NCBI RefSeq assembly: GCF_011057715.1
Contig: NZ_LNGH01000056.1
Span: forward strand, 1-35,159
Source: Marinitoga sp. 38H-ov
GTDB lineage: Bacteria; Thermotogota; Thermotogae; Petrotogales; Petrotogaceae
Reading direction: 5' to 3'
Length of the DNA: 35,159 nt
Shown here: positions 8,197 to 15,863 of the stretch, in pieces
Numbering within the stretch: the stretch's first letter is position 1
How the letters are laid out: each line of letters starts with the position of its first letter
Notes under the pieces: model-generated
What the model was told of the DNA's origin: nothing
What the model saw: only the letters and a program-made list of their open reading frames with translations
The model's database searches: none
Made by a program: the position numbers and the translations under genes

Positions 8197-8241
8197 ATAA
8201 ATATCAGAAATTTTAATCTGAGTTAAAAAATGAAATAATAA

Positions 8242-8287
8242 AAAACACCCCTGAAAATGAGAAAATAAAAGTAAGGGGTGTTTTTTT
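8242..8287. terminator. Terminator after the chemoreceptor gene (bidirectional form)
   Basis: An 11-bp stem (AAAACACCCCT 8242-8252 / AGGGGTGTTTT 8274-8284) with a 21-base A-rich loop, followed by a T-run to 8287. The A-run on the left side makes it usable in both directions. Confidence 0.85.
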
Positions 8288-8640
8288 AATTGCAAAGTAA
8301 AGATATATGATACGATATTTTTAATAAACACATTGAAAAAATTGTTGAATCAAATGAAAAAATGTTTTTTTAATATTTATAGAGGGTTTGATATATAATT
8401 TAGATCAATATACAAATATGTCAAGACATTATGTTCTAATTGAAATTTTCTTTTGACAATTAAATGTGAATATATCAAAAAACAAGAAATGAATATATTA
8501 TAGAATATTACATAAATTTTTTGAAAGTCAAGATTAAATAATATAGCTCTAGTAGAGTACTGGAGCCATGTTGGATAAATCTTTTATTCATTTTTTTTTA
8601 ATTGTACCGTTTTTGGGGAGTGCATCATATAAAAGAGGTA
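8285..8640 (+). other. Gene-poor spacer with decayed coding traces and an orphan hairpin
   Basis: No intact gene is seen here. From about 8290 a frame reads YDIFNKHIEKIVESNEKMFF with a TGA just before it and a TAA at 8371-8373. From 8382 another frame reads GLIYNLDQYTNMSRHYVLIE and continues through TGA codons as NVNISKNKK and YYRILHKFFESQD. This looks like the remnant of a gene degraded by stops and a frameshift, but the family is not recognised. At 8546-8566 a 9-bp stem with one G-T pair (GCTCTAGTA / TACTGGAGC) and a GAG loop stands alone with no T-run, so it is not a terminator. It could be an end hairpin of a lost mobile element. Confidence 0.3.
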
Positions 8641-8655
8641 TTTTTTTATAAAATA

Positions 8656-8664
8656 TGTTATAAT
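8656..8664 (+). promoter_or_regulatory. Extended -10 promoter of the adenylate cyclase cluster
   Basis: TGTTATAAT (8656-8664), a TGnTATAAT extended -10 element, 16 bases before the ATG at 8681. No good -35 box is at the right distance. The close spacing implies a very short leader. Confidence 0.6.
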
Positions 8665-8680
8665 ATATTTAGGTGATATT

Positions 8681-10660
8681 ATGAAAAAATTAATAAATAA
8701 TTTAAAAATTAGTCATTTTTTATTTCTTCTTTTTTTATCTTTATATATAATAACGTATTTATTTAACAATCCTTGGATTGAAATATTTGAATTGAAAACA
8801 TTAGATTTAAGATATAGAATTAGAGGTGAAAAAAAAATTGAATCTAATGTTGTTATTATTGCAATAGATGAGAATTCATTAATTAATATGTCTATAAATT
8901 TTAACGATGAATGGCCATGGAATAGAGAGCATTATGCAAGAATGATAGCTAAGTTGTTTAAATTAGGTATTAAAACTATAGGTTTTGATGTATCATTTAC
9001 TACACCTTCCGAAAGCAATATATTAGAAAATGGGAAATCTAAGGATGATATTTTACTATCAGCAATTTTAAGGAAATATAATAAAACAGTTTTAGGTACA
9101 TATCTTATAGTCGATAAAAATAATTATGAGTTTTATAACAATGTATATAAAAAAGAATTGGAAAATAATAAATTTTATTTAAATTATTCCTTTAAAATTA
9201 AAAATCCGGAATATTTATCTTTATTTTCTCCACTTACTGTTTATAAAATAATTCCTCCTATAATAGAATTTTCTTCTTTAGTTCCTGCATCAACATATGA
9301 AATTGGACAGTTGGATCCAGATGGTGTTGCTAGAAGTATACCTTTGATTTTTAAAGAAAATTGGGCATATAATGAAGGATATAGTACTGGATTATTCCCT
9401 CATATGGATTTAATATTGTATGCTTTTTATAATGATTATTCCCCTTTTGATTTTGTTTTTGATCCTAAATCTTATTCAATTGAAATTAATAATGAAGTTA
9501 TAAAAACTGATAAAAATGGTTTTTATTTATTAAATTTTTATGGAAAGGGAGAAAATATTTTTGATACTATTTCTTTTTATGATTTAGTATATAGCAATAA
9601 ATATGATAATTATAATTTCAAAGATAAAGTTGCTATTTTAGGTTATTCAGCTACTGCAAAAGGATTATACGATTTGAGAATTACTCCTTTTTCTAATAAT
9701 GAACCTGGAGTATATTTGCATGCTACAGCAGTACAAAATTTAATTAATAAAGATAAAATTCAAAGAATAAATTTCTTTTATACAAGTCTAATTCTTTTAT
9801 TATTATTATTTTTTTCTTTAATTTTTTTAACATTTGACAAAATAACAATTAAATTATTTTCTTTTTCTATTCCAATAATTTATGTATTATTATCATATTA
9901 TATGTTTAAAAATAATGTATGGATAGATACTTTTTATCCATTTATGTCTTCGCTAATAATATCTACAGTAGATACAGCTCAGGCTGTTTTAAAAGAATCT
10001 AAAGAAAAGAAGAAAATTAAATCTTTTTTCTTTAAATATGTTCCAGATTATGTTGCGCAAATGCTTTTAGAACAAGGTAAAACAGAATTAGGAGGAGAGA
10101 AAAAAAATGTAGTTATTTTAATGTCTGATATTGTAGGATTTACAGAAAAATCAGAAAAATTATCTCCTGAAGAAGTGGTAAAATTCTTAAATTATTATTT
10201 ATCACAAATGGCAGATATTATTAGAAATAAATATTATGGAACTATTGATAAATTTATTGGTGATTTAATTATGGCTATTTTCGGTGCTCCTATAGAATTT
10301 GGAGATGAAGTTGATAGGGCTGTTTCATGCGCATTAGAAATGAGAAAAAAAATTATAGATATTAATATAGAACTAAAGAAAATGGGTTTTGATTTTGAAA
10401 TAAATGCAGGAATAGGTATGCATTATGGTGAAGTGGTTATTGGTAACATTGGGGCAGATTTTAGAATGGACTACACTTGTATAGGTGATACGGTAAATAC
10501 TACATCAAGAATAGAACATTTAACTAGGGATTTAAATGAGTGGTTAATTGTAACAGAAGAAATTGAAAAAAGATCTAAAAAATATTCTTTTGAGTATATT
10601 GGTGATTTTAAAGTAAAAGGAAAAGAAAAACCTTTGAAATTATTTAAAATAAAGGGGTAG
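8681..10660 (+). CDS. CHASE2-domain adenylate/guanylate cyclase
   Basis: A 659-residue membrane-bound class III nucleotide cyclase. TM1 is at about residues 11-30, followed by an extracytoplasmic CHASE2 sensor (about 35-350) with the signature blocks DLRYRIRG, VVIIAIDENSL, WPWNREHYARMI and GFDVSFTTPSE. Three membrane helices lie at about 364-432. The catalytic domain runs from about residue 475 to the end. It has the metal-binding Asp residues in SDIVGFTEK and DKFIGDLIMAIFG, and the transition-state Asn/Arg in GDTVNTTSRIEH. The Lys of DKFIGD and the DYTCIGD segment are consistent with an ATP-using cyclase of the class IIIb pattern, but guanylate cyclase cannot be excluded. It opens a co-directional cluster that also includes two HD-GYP proteins and a FecR protein. 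Confidence 0.94.
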   Translation: MKKLINNLKISHFLFLLFLSLYIITYLFNNPWIEIFELKTLDLRYRIRGEKKIESNVVIIAIDENSLINMSINFNDEWPWNREHYARMIAKLFKLGIKTIGFDVSFTTPSESNILENGKSKDDILLSAILRKYNKTVLGTYLIVDKNNYEFYNNVYKKELENNKFYLNYSFKIKNPEYLSLFSPLTVYKIIPPIIEFSSLVPASTYEIGQLDPDGVARSIPLIFKENWAYNEGYSTGLFPHMDLILYAFYNDYSPFDFVFDPKSYSIEINNEVIKTDKNGFYLLNFYGKGENIFDTISFYDLVYSNKYDNYNFKDKVAILGYSATAKGLYDLRITPFSNNEPGVYLHATAVQNLINKDKIQRINFFYTSLILLLLLFFSLIFLTFDKITIKLFSFSIPIIYVLLSYYMFKNNVWIDTFYPFMSSLIISTVDTAQAVLKESKEKKKIKSFFFKYVPDYVAQMLLEQGKTELGGEKKNVVILMSDIVGFTEKSEKLSPEEVVKFLNYYLSQMADIIRNKYYGTIDKFIGDLIMAIFGAPIEFGDEVDRAVSCALEMRKKIIDINIELKKMGFDFEINAGIGMHYGEVVIGNIGADFRMDYTCIGDTVNTTSRIEHLTRDLNEWLIVTEEIEKRSKKYSFEYIGDFKVKGKEKPLKLFKIKG

Positions 10661-10665
10661 ATATT

Positions 10666-11832
10666 ATGGATGAACTAATATTAGAAAATATAAATATATT
10701 AAAGAAATTAAATTATGAATATATTATAAAGATAAATAATAAAATATTTAAAAATTTAATAAGCAAGAAGAATGAAATAATAAAGGTAAAATATGAAGGG
10801 AAATATAATATAGAAATTTCGCTTTACGATGAAATAGATGAAAATTATTTAATTAGTTTCGATCGTCTTATTAAAGAAAAAAATGGAATATCAAGAAATA
10901 ATTTTAATAAAAAAAATATATATAAATTTCTGTCAAATATATATCCAAACATAAATTTTATTGAAAATATAAATAACATTAATAAAATACTAAAAGATAT
11001 TTTTTTATTAGATGACATAAGTTTTAATATAAGTTCAGATTTTAATTTAATACAATATAATACATTTGAAAAAAATTCATTTAAACCTGAAAAATTATTA
11101 TGTTTTAATAAAAAGATATTTTTACCTATATTTTTTGAAAAAAATTTTATAGGACTTTTTATATTATATAGAAATAATGGTTTTGATTTATATGATTATT
11201 CTATTTTAAAGAAAACTAAAGATTATATTAATAAAAACATAGAAAACTCTATTTTAGAAAATAAATTTAATTTAATATTGGATAAATCTTTGAATATTTT
11301 GAGCAAAATATTAGAAAAGAGAAATCCAGGAGCTGAAAAGCATAGTGAAAATATAGAAAAAACAGCTTTGAAAATAGGAGAAATATTATCTTTAAAAGAA
11401 AATGATTTAAAGTACTTAAAATTTGGAAGTAAAATATTCGATATAGGAAAAATAGGAATTCCAGAAAAAATTTTAAACAAAAAAGATGATTTAACAAAAG
11501 AAGAGTTACAAATGGTAAAAAATCATGTTTTAAATGGATATGAATTGGTATCAAAAATACCAACTATTCCCGAAGAAGTAAAGAAAATTGTATTATATCA
11601 TCATGAAAAATGGAATGGAGAGGGTTATCCTAAAGGTTTAAAAGGAAATGAAATACCATTATTAGCTCAGATTATAGGGCTATTGGATGTTTATTATTCG
11701 TTATTAGAAGATAGACCGTATAGAAGCAAATTACCTAAAGTGAAAGTTATAGAGTTGATGGACAGTTATAGCGGTATCTTTTTTAATCCTATTTTAGTAG
11801 ATGCATTAAAAGAGGTGATAAAAAATGAATGA
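10666..11832 (+). CDS. HD-GYP domain protein with degenerate HD motif
   Basis: A 388-residue cytoplasmic protein. The first ~200 residues are a divergent region that may contain a GAF-like fold (PIFFEKNFIGLFILYRNNGF resembles the end of a GAF domain). The C-terminal ~180 residues are clearly HD-GYP, the cyclic-di-GMP phosphodiesterase family. It keeps the first His (HSENIEK, about residue 226), the HH pair and the GYP block (HHEKWNGEGYPKGLKGNEIP, from about 311). The defining His-Asp is changed: where active members read LLHDVGKIG, this one reads KIFDIGKIG, losing the metal-ligand His. Later ADIFDALT is replaced by LDVYYSLL. It may bind rather than hydrolyse cyclic-di-GMP. It starts five bases after the cyclase gene and overlaps the next gene by eight bases. 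Confidence 0.88.
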   Translation: MDELILENINILKKLNYEYIIKINNKIFKNLISKKNEIIKVKYEGKYNIEISLYDEIDENYLISFDRLIKEKNGISRNNFNKKNIYKFLSNIYPNINFIENINNINKILKDIFLLDDISFNISSDFNLIQYNTFEKNSFKPEKLLCFNKKIFLPIFFEKNFIGLFILYRNNGFDLYDYSILKKTKDYINKNIENSILENKFNLILDKSLNILSKILEKRNPGAEKHSENIEKTALKIGEILSLKENDLKYLKFGSKIFDIGKIGIPEKILNKKDDLTKEELQMVKNHVLNGYELVSKIPTIPEEVKKIVLYHHEKWNGEGYPKGLKGNEIPLLAQIIGLLDVYYSLLEDRPYRSKLPKVKVIELMDSYSGIFFNPILVDALKEVIKNE

Positions 11833-12478
11833 AAATATTTTTTATTATTTTTTATTTGCTCATCTAATCGGAGATTATGTATTCCAAACATCTTATATTG
11901 CAAAATATAAAAATTCAAAAATTAATGTTCTTGTTTTACATATATCTATAATATTTATTTCAATGTTTTTGCTATTATTACCATCATCATTGAGATTAAT
12001 AAATTTTCTTTTAATAATATCTTTAACTTTAATTCATTTTTTAATTGATATATTAAAATATAAAAATAGAACAAATAAATCATTCAATTCTCATACGTAT
12101 TATATATTAGATCAAGTTATGCATTTTTCATCATTAATATTAATAAGTTTATTATATAAGCCTAAAAATATGCTCATTAGTTTTGAATACACAAAATTAT
12201 TTGCTATAGGATTATTTAACGCTTATTTCATTAGTTTATTATTTTATATGATTGATGGGTTTTCTAAACCATATAAAAGAGATTATTTGGGATATTTTTT
12301 TAGGTTTTCTTTACCGTTTATAAAATTCTATAGTGATATATTATTTTTGATTTTTTCTTTTCTATTTGTTTTAATCTCTATATTTATATTTTTTAAAAAA
12401 GAAGATTTTAATTCGAGATCTGAATTAGGACCATTATCTTTGAGTATAATTATTACTTATTTAACTATATGGGGGTGA
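11825..12478 (+). CDS. DUF3307 family membrane protein
   Basis: A 217-residue integral membrane protein of the DUF3307 family. The recognisable N-terminal signature is FLFAHLIGDYVFQTSYIAKY, followed by hydrophobic helices at about residues 28-50 and 56-72. A conserved His/Asp-containing helix follows (TLIHFLIDILKY), then YYILDQVMHFSSLILISLL and further helices to about residue 200. The function is unknown; polar residues buried in the first helix (His, Asp) are typical of the family. It overlaps the HD-GYP gene by eight bases and is followed four bases later by the FecR-domain gene, so it is part of the same operon and may belong to the same envelope signalling function. Confidence 0.82.
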   Translation: MNENIFYYFLFAHLIGDYVFQTSYIAKYKNSKINVLVLHISIIFISMFLLLLPSSLRLINFLLIISLTLIHFLIDILKYKNRTNKSFNSHTYYILDQVMHFSSLILISLLYKPKNMLISFEYTKLFAIGLFNAYFISLLFYMIDGFSKPYKRDYLGYFFRFSLPFIKFYSDILFLIFSFLFVLISIFIFFKKEDFNSRSELGPLSLSIIITYLTIWG

Positions 12479-12482
12479 GCTT

Positions 12483-14585
12483 ATGTATAAAAAAATATCT
12501 TTAATATTATTTTTAATTAGCACATTATTTATTTTTGGTAATTTAGTAATAACATCAGAAAGTACAAAGTTATTTGTTGGAGAGGAAACGGAAATTTTAA
12601 TTTCAACTAATCAATCAACTTTAACTCATTTAAATGTAGAAATTAGTAGCGGAGGATTTGATGATCCATTAATATTATTTGATGGTATTGATTTAATTAA
12701 TGGGAAAGCACAAATAAAGTATTTATCTCCTTGGAGAGCTGGTGAATCAATAATTAAATTTTATAATGAAGAATTAAATATTGAAAAAACAATAAAAATT
12801 AATATTGTTGAAAAAATTTTAGATACACAAAAAACAACATTAATTATTTTAGAAAAGAAAGGAAATGTTTTATACAAAGAACCTAATTCGGATATTTGGG
12901 ATTCGTTAAAAGATGATACTATAATACAAGAAGAATCAGAATTATTAACGTTAAAAGATGGATTTATACATTTAAAAGAGCCAACCCTAAATATTGAAAT
13001 TAAAGTTTCTTCTGAAACGCAATTATTTTTAAAAAAATTAAGAGCTTCAGAAAATGGGGATATAGATATAGAATATGAATTGAAAAAAGGAGCTACTGTA
13101 AATAAAATTAAAGAAATATTAGCTCCAGGTTCTAAATATCTTGTTGGCTCTGGTTCAGTAGTTGCTGGGGTCAGAGGGACTGAATTTGGTTTTGAGAAAA
13201 AGGGAGATGTAGCAAAAATAAGAACTTTTGAAGGAACAGTATATACTATGGTTAATAATAAATTATTTCCAGTTACAGTAGGAAATATGTTTAATTATTC
13301 CACAACACAAAAAAGTCCTCAAATTCAGAGATTAGATAAACCTTTAGAACAATATGAAAAGGAAATAACTCCTGAAATACCAAAAGAGCCAGAAACCGTA
13401 GAAAATAAACTAAAAAAAGAAGAAGCTCAAAACTCTATTGAAGAATCTGTTGTTAAATCAAAAGCAAATATAGGAAATATCTCTTTTGGAAAACAAATTA
13501 AAGGTACTAATAGTTATTTAGTATACTCATTTGCTCCAAGTTTGGATATTGGACCTGTTGGTTTAGGAATAGGATTTAATGCATATCAAGAAGATATAGA
13601 TAGTCCTTTATACTATGGTTTACCTAGTAAGGAGGCGTCTAGATCAGATAATCTTTTAAGTGCAATATCAATAAATTATTTAAAATTTGATTTTCCAATG
13701 TTTTATATTAGATATGGAATTAGCCCTTCTTATACAAAAGGGTTGGGTCTATTTATGAACAACTATTATATACCATACTCTAGAGTTTTAGATACTGAAA
13801 TTAGATTAAATAATTTAAAAATCGGAGTTCATATTCCATATGAAATATTATCATTTGTTCCATTTGAATTTAGTAAATCATCAGATATTTTATTTGGATA
13901 TATTGATGCTGACCTTGGAATATTTAATGCAGAATTTACTGCTATATTAAATACTGATTCGAATTCTAATGATATTAATCAAGCATATTTAACAACGTTA
14001 TATAAAGATATATTATTTTTCAAAGTAGGGGTTGAAACAGATGTTGTATTAACAAAAGATGGTACAATGGTTTATGGATTACTTGCTGGACCAACTATAA
14101 AATTTCCACCATATTTCCAATTTATGTTTGGGATAAATTATATATCCGATGGCTTTAATATAGAGTATTTAAATGCATATTATGAATATAATATAGCAAA
14201 TAATTATTATTTGGACCTTGGAACAGAGTCTTCTTTTGGTTTAATAGGAAAAAGCATATTTACAATATCGCCATATTTAAATATGATAATTAATTACAAT
14301 AAATTATTTAGCGAAAATAGGGATAGCATATTAAATGGAGAAATTATGCTTAACATTCCATCATTAGGAGGGATGCCTCAATTAACTGCTGGATTTTCTT
14401 ATACTCAATATAAATTTTTAGAAGATTATACAGTCGATAATATATTTTTAAATGATAATGCTAATTTACAAGGATTTATATATTATCCAGTTTTAGAAAA
14501 TTCTGGTATTATTTATTCTATAAGTTATAATATGAGAGATAAAAAATTTGAATATACTCTTAATTTTGAAACGAAGGAGTTTTAA
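12483..14585 (+). CDS. Secreted FecR-domain protein with beta-rich C-terminus
   Basis: A 700-residue exported protein. Residues 1-19 form a signal peptide (MYKKISLILFLISTLFIFG). Residues ~20-110 look like an immunoglobulin-type beta domain. Residues ~115-270 contain a FecR domain, ending in the diagnostic block GSGSVVAGVRGTEFGFEKKG and then AKIRTFEGTVYTM. A Pro/Glu-rich linker (about 285-320) leads to about 370 residues of alternating aromatic beta strands that look like an outer-membrane barrel. Here FecR lacks the anti-sigma cytoplasmic part and no sigma factor is nearby, so it is likely a structural or sensory envelope domain rather than an iron regulator. It may signal to, or be controlled by, the CHASE2 cyclase in the same operon; that is inference. 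Confidence 0.8.
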   Translation: MYKKISLILFLISTLFIFGNLVITSESTKLFVGEETEILISTNQSTLTHLNVEISSGGFDDPLILFDGIDLINGKAQIKYLSPWRAGESIIKFYNEELNIEKTIKINIVEKILDTQKTTLIILEKKGNVLYKEPNSDIWDSLKDDTIIQEESELLTLKDGFIHLKEPTLNIEIKVSSETQLFLKKLRASENGDIDIEYELKKGATVNKIKEILAPGSKYLVGSGSVVAGVRGTEFGFEKKGDVAKIRTFEGTVYTMVNNKLFPVTVGNMFNYSTTQKSPQIQRLDKPLEQYEKEITPEIPKEPETVENKLKKEEAQNSIEESVVKSKANIGNISFGKQIKGTNSYLVYSFAPSLDIGPVGLGIGFNAYQEDIDSPLYYGLPSKEASRSDNLLSAISINYLKFDFPMFYIRYGISPSYTKGLGLFMNNYYIPYSRVLDTEIRLNNLKIGVHIPYEILSFVPFEFSKSSDILFGYIDADLGIFNAEFTAILNTDSNSNDINQAYLTTLYKDILFFKVGVETDVVLTKDGTMVYGLLAGPTIKFPPYFQFMFGINYISDGFNIEYLNAYYEYNIANNYYLDLGTESSFGLIGKSIFTISPYLNMIINYNKLFSENRDSILNGEIMLNIPSLGGMPQLTAGFSYTQYKFLEDYTVDNIFLNDNANLQGFIYYPVLENSGIIYSISYNMRDKKFEYTLNFETKEF

Positions 14586-14586
14586 T

Positions 14587-15834
14587 ATGATTGATAATTA
14601 TATTCAAGAATATAAGATTTCTGGAATTCTTAAAGATGGAAAATTATATGGAAAAAAGGATAAGTATAAATATAATATATTATCAGATGTTCAAATTTAT
14701 TCTAGTATAAATCTTAATGATTTAGATTTAATAACTTTAAAAAATATGTTTTATGAAAATAAAGATACAAACTTTAATTTTAAAAGAAAAAATATTTTAG
14801 GAGTTTTAAAACTTATAGTTAGTAATTTTAAGTTAGAGTCTGTGTTAAAAATGACAGAAGAAGCTTTAAGGTCTTTATTAGAGTCTGACGGAGCGTCTAT
14901 ATTATTATTTAATGAAGAAAAAGAGGTGTTGAATTTTTATATAACCTCTGGTGGTGCTAGTGGAAATATTGAAACTGTTGATGTTCCAATAAATAATTCT
15001 ATTGCTGGACAATGTTTTAAAATGAAAAAAACAATCATTATTAATGATGCAGAAAATAATCCATTTCATTTTAAAGGAACTGATAAAAAAGCAAAGTACA
15101 AAACAGTTAATTTAATTGCTACTCCATTGTTTTCAAATAATGAGGTAGTTGGTGTTTTAGAAGCTGTAAATAAAAAAAATGGAGATTTTAATAATGAAGA
15201 TAAAAATATAATTGAAATTTTTTCTTCATTAATATCTAATAAATTAATAAACGCGAAAATTTATGAAGAATTAAGTAGTACTATTAAAGGCATAATATTA
15301 GCAGTTGCAACAGCTATTGATATAAGAGATAATTATACGCATACACATTCCAAAAACGTTTCAAATTTAGCAGTAAAAATTGGAGAAAAAATGGGATTTA
15401 ATGATTCATTACTAGAAGAATTAGAAATTTCTGCTTTATTACACGATGTTGGAAAGATTGGAATACCAGATGAGATATTAAATAAACCTTCAAAGCTTAC
15501 TGAAGAAGAGTATAAAATTATACAATCTCATACAATTATTGGTGCAGAATTATTAGCAGAAATTGATTTTCTTTCAAAAAATATTCCGTTAGGAGCATTG
15601 GAACATCATGAAAAATTAGATGGATCAGGGTATCCGTATCAAAAAAAAGGAAGTGAAATTTCAGAATTTGGTAAAATACTAGCAGCAGCTGATATATTTG
15701 ATGCATTAACTGCAAAAAGGGTGTACAAAGAACCTTGGCCTAAAGAAAAAGTATTTGAAATGTTAAAAAATGATTGTCCAATAAAATTTGATTGTGAAAT
15801 TATTAATGCGCTTGAAAAATCTATTAACGAGTAA
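14587..15834 (+). CDS. GAF-HD-GYP protein, probable cyclic-di-GMP phosphodiesterase
   Basis: A 415-residue cytoplasmic protein. The ATG at 14587 follows GAAGGAG and sits one base after the preceding stop. A longer in-frame reading from 14548 lies inside the FecR gene and is less likely. Residues 1-70 are uncharacterised. A GAF sensor domain spans about 90-220 (SDGASILLFNEEKEVLNFYI ... PINNSIAGQCF ... GVLEAVNKKNGDF). A complete HD-GYP domain spans about 235-410, with HTHSKNVSNLA, the intact LLHDVGKIGIPDEILNKP, HH at about 340, and LDGSGYP followed by AAADIFDALTAKR. All metal ligands expected for the family are present, in contrast to the degenerate HD-GYP gene upstream. It ends the cluster and is followed at once by a terminator. 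Confidence 0.92.
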   Translation: MIDNYIQEYKISGILKDGKLYGKKDKYKYNILSDVQIYSSINLNDLDLITLKNMFYENKDTNFNFKRKNILGVLKLIVSNFKLESVLKMTEEALRSLLESDGASILLFNEEKEVLNFYITSGGASGNIETVDVPINNSIAGQCFKMKKTIIINDAENNPFHFKGTDKKAKYKTVNLIATPLFSNNEVVGVLEAVNKKNGDFNNEDKNIIEIFSSLISNKLINAKIYEELSSTIKGIILAVATAIDIRDNYTHTHSKNVSNLAVKIGEKMGFNDSLLEELEISALLHDVGKIGIPDEILNKPSKLTEEEYKIIQSHTIIGAELLAEIDFLSKNIPLGALEHHEKLDGSGYPYQKKGSEISEFGKILAAADIFDALTAKRVYKEPWPKEKVFEMLKNDCPIKFDCEIINALEKSINE

Positions 15835-15863
15835 AAGGGGGTAATCCCCTTTTATTTTTTTTT
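15833..15863 (+). terminator. Terminator of the cyclase/HD-GYP cluster
   Basis: An 8-bp perfect stem AAAAGGGG (15833-15840) / CCCCTTTT (15846-15853), a 5-base loop, and a T-run at 15855-15863. It overlaps the stop codon of the GAF-HD-GYP gene. Confidence 0.93.

Follow-up and report, generated by a model that had tools for sequence, protein, structure and literature searches.

A conserved five-gene operon of Thermotogota in which a CHASE2 adenylate-cyclase-type gene is linked to genes for an exported FecR/barrel protein and two HD-GYP proteins

We wanted to know whether five tightly packed genes of Marinitoga sp. 38H-ov, which encode a CHASE2 cyclase, two HD-GYP proteins, a DUF3307 membrane protein, and a FecR-domain protein, form one signaling system and, if so, what that system might do. 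The genes lie in a stretch of 35,159 nt (the window; contig NZ_LNGH01000056.1, assembly GCF_011057715.1), and all coordinates are positions in that window. The original prediction, made from the DNA sequence alone, proposed a single envelope-sensing system in which the exported FecR protein and the periplasmic CHASE2 domain share a signal and two nucleotide messengers meet. We favor, with a probability of roughly 0.6, the reading that the operon is the cyclic AMP (cAMP) input module of these Thermotogota, in which a signal would pass from a barrel receptor through FecR and CHASE2 to cAMP and on to a protein with two cyclic nucleotide monophosphate (cNMP)-binding domains, with coupling to cyclic di-GMP (c-di-GMP) via the HD-GYP proteins. 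The open reading frames (ORFs) and Pfam agree on the identities of the five genes and on their common strand at 8681-15834, and the intergenic gaps of +5, -8, +4, and +1 match the spacings of -8 to +5 given originally. The genes are as follows.

8681..10660, forward strand: CHASE2 class III adenylate-cyclase-type enzyme, 659 amino acids (aa) (Pfam; hydrophobic segments; invariant catalytic positions)
10666..11832, forward strand: HD1, HD-GYP protein without the His of the HD motif (FDIGK), 388 aa (Pfam; residue comparison)
11825..12478, forward strand: DUF3307 helical membrane protein with invariant His, Asp, and Gln residues, 217 aa (Pfam; AlphaFold2, mean predicted local distance difference test score (pLDDT) 92.5)
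12483..14585, forward strand: exported FecR/barrel protein, 700 aa (Pfam; AlphaFold2; Foldseek; signal-peptide-like N terminus)
14587..15834, forward strand: HD2, GAF-HD-GYP protein in which every HD-GYP residue checked is intact (Pfam; solved-structure search; residue comparison)

The listed start of the HD2 gene is a TTG at 14548; the first ATG, at 14587, is preceded by a ribosome-binding-like AAGGAG. For the five proteins, NCBIfam returned no family above its cut-off except the HDIG domain model for HD2.

Among the 103 genomes compared from Thermotogota, a phylum of largely thermophilic bacteria (G numbers denote genomes, L numbers individual loci, and f numbers families in this set), CHASE2 was detected in 37, DUF3307 in 43, and FecR in 31, and the surroundings of all 37 CHASE2 genes were inspected. 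The genes remain linked in these relatives: the five-gene order is complete in 28 of the 37 CHASE2-positive genomes, a count that includes G007 (broken genes), G020 (split FecR gene), and G069 (split cyclase gene), and contig ends cut five more loci (G073, G086, G087, G098, and G102). In the remaining arrangements, the cyclase is inverted (G070), the cyclase, HD-GYP, and DUF3307 genes alone are present (two f5 genomes), or the locus is decayed (G076). The cluster spans five families of the phylum (one family has the first three genes only), a conservation that places it far beyond chance. Because the genes up- and downstream of the operon vary between genera, this is not general synteny, and the identical order within differing flanks upholds the proposal of one system.

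Two of these loci are of interest in their own right. At L126 (G070:C1:6000-25000), from 9139-12268, the cyclase gene runs opposite to the remaining four genes and has a 343-aa ORF on either side. Pfam, applied to one of these two ORFs, gave an IS240-type DDE transposase; an inversion mediated by an insertion sequence has probably split this operon. L112 (G007:C7:130000-149000) is a decaying copy of the operon, in order but fragmented, in a genome that retains the two-domain cNMP-binding protein.

The proposed tie between the exported FecR protein and CHASE2 is upheld both within and outside the phylum. First, FecR was found in 31/37 CHASE2-positive genomes versus 0/66 CHASE2-negative genomes. 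Six CHASE2-positive genomes gave no FecR match: G073 and G102, whose loci reach contig ends; G076, whose locus is decayed; the f5 genomes G023 and G024; and G018, in which FecR is present but falls under the whole-genome threshold (E 9.5e-6 when searched singly). Second, we searched GTDB genomes by tblastn with Thermotogota cyclases and listed the best 80 loci, of which five are from Thermotogota and 75 from elsewhere. Being the best matches, the 75 are not a random sample: genera are repeated (Ruegeria, Paenibacillus, and Cohnella), some loci are cut near the cyclase by contig ends, and taxa were grouped by record titles, so that the following counts hold among the matches listed. In 41/75 loci, a FecR gene is at most two genes away from the cyclase and shares its strand, namely in Bacillota (15/20), Alphaproteobacteria (16/18), Campylobacterota (7/11, plus 3 with FecR on the opposite strand), Cyanobacteriota (1/4), Cloacimonadota (1/4), and Bacteroidota (1/1); Gammaproteobacteria (0/6), Betaproteobacteria (0/4), and others (0/7) gave none. 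By Pfam alone, FecR was seen in 11/49 next-downstream and 25/55 next-upstream genes on the same strand. As the internal control, we compared genes within three places of the cyclase with those further off, on either strand: FecR occurred in 47/397 versus 1/539, HD-GYP in 11/397 versus 1/539, and DUF3307 in 7/397 versus 0/539. FecR-CHASE2 adjacency is found, among the matches listed, in seven phyla including Thermotogota, three of them by one locus each; the cyanobacterial FecR (9.1e-7) is the only one from these three confirmed singly by Pfam. Such a partner suggests that the signal is presented to CHASE2 by a protein and makes a direct test of CHASE2 binding possible.

Further, we note two recurrent arrangements in these loci. 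At L148 (11218-13888), and similarly at L138, L152, L164, L187, and L192, a FecR-less CHASE2 cyclase is followed by a trio of genes for proteins of ~160, 280, and 430 aa; the ~430-aa member in L148 has a weak FadL/TodX-type barrel match (3.6e-4) and is perhaps another outer-membrane partner. In Paenibacillus (L142, L144, L145, L150, and L167), a gene of 532-544 aa lies downstream of the cyclase-FecR pair and in L142 encodes NHL and copper-amine-oxidase-N domains; four of the five loci then have an HD-GYP gene of ~250 aa.

FecR beside a CHASE2 cyclase has already been reported, both in Campylobacterota and as the NsrA-CyaK pair of Sinorhizobium meliloti. In the S. meliloti work, NsrA is reported to be needed for signaling by the CHASE2 cyclase CyaK (PMC7529298, PMC13001267), its barrel portion comprises residues 600-1200, and a ribosomal protein acting via NsrA was proposed as the signal (PMC7529298). 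In the pSymB record, the gene directly upstream of cyaK overlaps it by one base and encodes 1197 aa with TPR repeats and a FecR domain (1.5e-15); CyaK carries CHASE2 and cyclase domains. From its length, we take this upstream gene to be nsrA. The S. meliloti locus thus resembles the operon in having a FecR-domain gene clustered with a CHASE2 cyclase, and its output is cAMP; it differs in that TPR repeats follow FecR in a protein of ~1197 aa, whereas Pfam found none in the FecR protein of the window, and in that no HD-GYP or DUF3307 gene is named among the products in 14.8 kb of a gene table that is possibly incomplete. In Campylobacterota, the cluster described in PMC9239204 consists of a CHASE2 cyclase, a FecR outer-membrane protein, a cAMP phosphodiesterase, and a TPR protein. 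The CHASE2 cyclase and a FecR-domain protein, in Thermotogota with a predicted barrel, are shared between the two, and the phosphodiesterase and the TPR protein are found in the Campylobacterota cluster only. In L139, L140, and L201 (opposite strand), the HD-GYP protein near the CHASE2 cyclase is a GAF-HD-GYP protein fused to PDEase_II, a fusion not mentioned in the section on the cluster in PMC9239204, and no DUF3307 was found in the 11 Campylobacterota loci among the matches listed. A more distant likeness is the BiofilmReg operon of Burkholderiales, in which an exported FecR-domain protein is reported to stand beside a CHASE2 histidine kinase (PMC5192318); there the output is the histidine kinase and a response regulator, LysM accompanies FecR, and the passages on it mention no barrel. 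The same source called the signal read by CHASE2 domains unknown in 2016, and PMC5498481 notes that a further S. meliloti protein controlled by cAMP contains a FecR domain. In listings of open-licence papers, among them one on a phage that names DUF3307, we found no report of the five-gene Thermotogota operon or its inactive/active HD-GYP pair, of a function for DUF3307 or its recurrence as a cyclase neighbor, or of the HD-GYP-cAMP phosphodiesterase fusion near Campylobacterota CHASE2 cyclases.

These precedents bear on whether the genes are anything other than a bundle of co-inherited envelope signaling genes, with no direct contact between FecR and CHASE2 and with the barrel protein as the target of the pathway instead of its receptor. 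Co-transcription is no proof of contact, and barrel paralogues without FecR do stand alone, for example beside a sugar-binding-protein-like gene. However, the adjacency of FecR and CHASE2 recurs in seven phyla (three by one locus each, among the matches listed) where the further genes are quite different, and NsrA is reported to be needed for CyaK signaling (PMC7529298), so we regard a mere bundle as unlikely.

We next consider the FecR/barrel protein itself. Its 700 residues run from the signal-peptide-like N terminus through a beta-rich domain, the FecR domain, and a low-confidence linker (300-331) to a predicted barrel (~328-697). The AlphaFold2 model (mean pLDDT 81.8; predicted template modeling score (pTM) 0.50) has an N-terminal helix and about twenty strands from past residue 328 to the C terminus. 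Foldseek aligned this model with the FecR-like anti-sigma factor 4m0h (root mean square deviation (rmsd) 2.7 over 135 columns) and the PupR cell-surface-signaling domain 6ovk (rmsd 3.9); these alignments, of ~135-144 columns, presumably cover the FecR region. Many outer-membrane barrels were also matched at a probability of ~1.00, with low TM-scores (0.2-0.4) for a query of pTM 0.50. A search of solved structures with the FecR/barrel profile gave nothing significant (best E 0.38), and only the predicted fold was matched. The resemblance of part of the model to anti-sigma regulators would fit classical FecI-FecR-FecA sigma-factor signaling, but Pfam, applied to the five operon proteins and not to the flanking genes, detected no sigma factor, and no hydrophobic segment lies inside the FecR protein, only the signal-peptide-like one at its N terminus. 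On both grounds we rejected the canonical FecI-FecR arrangement, and we consider signaling of this class highly improbable here. In the cAMP input module that we favor, the C-terminal barrel would lie in the outer membrane and bind or relay an outside signal, and the FecR domain, hanging in the periplasm, would contact the CHASE2 domain there and in this way alter cAMP synthesis by the cyclase in the inner membrane. The computations show the identities, order, and conservation of the genes, their co-occurrence, the catalytic residues, and the folds as predictions, whereas the contacts, ligands, activities, and signal direction in this scheme are inferences.

Relatives of parts of this protein occur elsewhere. 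Stand-alone paralogues of the barrel region were seen in operon-bearing genomes of the window's family and in G011, which has no CHASE2; the relative at L026 (1480-2679), of 399 aa, is the one beside the sugar-binding-protein-like gene and has neither FecR nor any Pfam match. An additional FecR gene, shorter at ~300-360 aa, is present in some f9 and f10 genomes, and at L099 (2885-3964) and L100 (13828-14838) it lies in a separate cluster a few kb upstream of the operon.

The cyclase protein matches the Pfam families CHASE2 (4.7e-43) and Guanylate_cyc (1.8e-24) and consists of an N-terminal hydrophobic segment, CHASE2, more hydrophobic segments, and the cyclase domain. In the catalytic domain (PF00211), the D, K, D, T, N, and R positions, which we take to be the two metal-binding Asp, the substrate-binding Lys and Thr, and the transition-state Asn and Arg residues, are invariant in 13/13 aligned cyclases, and the best solved relatives are adenylate cyclases. 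Class III cyclase matches were found in 35/103 genomes, exactly one in each and always the CHASE2 gene; the operon is therefore the sole locus at which a class III cyclase was detected in these Thermotogota genomes, and it marks where class III cAMP signaling exists in the phylum. In a tree, the 33 Thermotogota cyclases longer than 500 aa group together against 75 others (support 1.0), which fits one origin and repeated loss. Because cNMP-binding domains occur in 91/103 genomes, a CRP-like protein alone is no marker of this signaling. A two-domain cNMP-binding protein, mostly of 390-460 aa and with two such stretches by Pfam in the copy of the window's genome, was detected (E below 1e-12) in 27/37 CHASE2-positive versus 0/66 CHASE2-negative genomes; weak matches (E 8.5e-4 to 3.1e-8) in seven CHASE2-negative genomes are mostly ordinary proteins of CRP length. 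We suggest that cNMP-binding proteins would read the cAMP, and that this two-domain protein, co-inherited with the operon, is the leading candidate for the chief effector.

Both HD-GYP proteins match Pfam HD_5 (HD1, 1.5e-35; HD2, 6.9e-38, plus GAF). HD1 was rightly called degenerate: it has FDIGK for HDIGK, and the His of the HD motif is lost in 33/35 HD1 sequences and kept only in two from f5, whereas the equivalents of H250, H276, and H277 (presumably in the numbering of PmGH) are kept in every HD1 that covers them. In HD2, the HD, GYP, and metal-ligand positions checked are all kept in 28/28 sequences. Among solved structures, HD2 is matched best over its whole length by the GAF-HD-GYP phosphodiesterase 4mcw/4me4 (342 residues, E 1e-56), which we take to be PmGH, and next by a 3'3'-cGAMP phosphodiesterase; HD1 departs from 4mcw/4me4 by lacking the HD-motif His. 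These residues suggest an inactive/active pair, in which HD2 would degrade a cyclic dinucleotide, most likely c-di-GMP, and HD1 would regulate HD2 while itself being inactive; if so, we propose, the surface signal would also adjust that second messenger. The two f5 genomes that keep the HD1 His show no HD2 at the locus and no detectable FecR gene, absences that are not certain because their contigs end 0.4 and 0.8 kb downstream. GGDEF proteins occur in 103/103 genomes, and c-di-GMP is thus likely available, although this is not diagnostic. Whereas the original prediction held up with respect to one system and the FecR-CHASE2 tie, a meeting of cAMP and cyclic-di-GMP-type messengers in the operon is suggestive only, given that it is read from the ubiquity of GGDEF, the intact HD2 residues, and the three Campylobacterota HD-GYP-phosphodiesterase fusions.

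Those fusions also bear on another assignment, in which the cyclase and the FecR/barrel protein form one unit and the HD-GYP pair is a cAMP off-switch, with HD2 hydrolyzing cAMP or a related cyclic nucleotide and HD1 regulating it. A class II cAMP phosphodiesterase was detected in none of the 37 CHASE2-positive genomes (2/103 overall), whereas Campylobacterota relatives have one, in three cases fused to GAF-HD-GYP, and the GAF region of HD2 resembles by sequence the GAF domains of animal cyclic-nucleotide phosphodiesterases. On the other hand, the two best solved relatives of HD2 are the GAF-HD-GYP and 3'3'-cGAMP phosphodiesterases named above, the Campylobacterota fusion retains both domains, which would be redundant in an off-switch, and the phosphodiesterase negative covers class II only (other families were not searched). 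We judge a cAMP off-switch to be quite unlikely.

The third gene gives DUF3307 a testable partner, the adjacent cyclase. The window protein matches Pfam DUF3307 at 2.3e-25, and nine residues (H13, D17, Q21, H39, H71, D75, D96, Q97, and H100) are invariant in 37 sequences; AlphaFold2 (pLDDT 92.5) places eight of them on helices, and a metal site may be hinted at. No convincing match to the fold was obtained (Foldseek best E 1.5; VIA-align Z <=5.6, in the range of common arrangements). DUF3307 occurs in 35/37 CHASE2-positive versus 8/66 CHASE2-negative genomes, one of the 8 being under the cut-off, and SatD is absent beside it in the window operon, where its neighbors are HD-GYP and FecR. Outside the phylum, DUF3307 lies within two genes of the cyclase, among the matches listed, in six alphaproteobacterial loci and in Brevibacillus; one of these loci, L157, has no FecR. 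We suspected that the alphaproteobacterial matches of 127-134 aa reflected drift of the iterative search, but Pfam scored all six of the outside matches given to it, including Brevibacillus, above the gathering threshold; the seventh is the L204 fragment. Among 18 DUF3307 plasmid loci, hand-picked for variety from 28 matching records, a class III cyclase lies directly upstream in 11, every one from Rhizobium or Sinorhizobium; the other 7 come from Cupriavidus (3), Roseateles, Ruegeria, Shinella, and Tritonibacter. The CHASE2 profile matched none of the 11 plasmid cyclases, and the two tested by Pfam have a dCache-like region under that family's cut-off. Within the favored cAMP input module, DUF3307 would be a membrane partner of the cyclase.

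At L107 (8519-10056), in an f2 genome without CHASE2, DUF3307 adjoins a SatD-family gene by Pfam; this is the one neighbor so checked in the 8 CHASE2-negative genomes with DUF3307.

Several observations weigh against the favored reading. The counts of co-occurrence are not phylogenetically independent, because the genomes are related. The two-domain cNMP-binding protein is missing from 10/37 CHASE2-positive genomes (G004, G023, G024, G070, G076, G077-G080, and G098). The f5 genomes (71% and 90% complete) have cyclase, HD-GYP, and DUF3307 genes with no detectable FecR gene, and the CHASE2-cyclase loci of six gamma-, four beta-, and one unassigned proteobacterium, among the matches listed, have no FecR neighbor, so FecR is not obligatory. 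Further, the FecR partners in Bacillota, mostly of 704-1147 aa, belong to single-membraned bacteria, and a barrel therefore cannot be general. The FecR match of the window protein itself (1.7e-4, 22.4 bits) is just below the Pfam cut-off of 24 bits, whereas that of the relative L092 (7.5e-16) is well over it; the barrel is predicted from a model of pTM 0.50 and low TM-scores, from which we infer the outer-membrane location. Finally, only 3/7 of the outside DUF3307 neighbors (L174, L186, and L188), among the matches listed, are on the cyclase strand.

A wider generalization is tentative, and we hold it to be possible at somewhat less than even odds: FecR and CHASE2 would be a general receptor pair with an exchangeable output, used in seven or more phyla, among them single-membraned ones; DUF3307 would be a membrane subunit dedicated to sensory transmembrane adenylate cyclases of both the CHASE2 and dCache-like kinds, and perhaps an intramembrane metalloenzyme; and in Thermotogota and Campylobacterota the receptor would also drive an HD-GYP phosphodiesterase, so that cAMP and c-di-GMP would be joined in one hard-wired switch. 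The inactive/active HD-GYP pair provides a defined place to look for such coupling, and the operon proteins are likely stable enough for structural study.

The boundaries of the operon are marked by the following features.

8642..8680, forward strand: likely promoter and ribosome-binding region, with TATAAT at 8659-8664, AGGTGAT before the ATG, and a sister-species match of 92-93%
15829..15857, forward strand: intrinsic terminator-like hairpin and T run (terminator scan)
8243..8289, forward strand: likely terminator of the upstream MCP gene, AAACACCCCT ... AGGGGTGTTT then a T run, read from the sequence directly

The single terminator originally proposed is found at 15829-15857; the scan gave 3 entries versus 1.1 expected, and 2/3 of these are this same hairpin. 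The loop of the hairpin at 8243..8289 exceeds the length allowed by the scan, and it was hence seen by eye only. By blastn, the stretch just 5' of the first ATG, which contains the TATAAT, is conserved in sister species, from 8642 in one and from 8652 in three others, but the sigma-70 consensus promoter scan gave 76 sites versus 77.3 expected, no better than shuffled sequence, and at this chance level in AT-rich DNA is therefore uninformative on the operon promoter. The rest of the upstream gap had no blastn match among the compared loci, and an Rfam search of 511 bases around the gap gave no match. This gap, in the region of 8197-8640, is 484 bases long here versus ~70-140 in sister species with the same upstream gene.

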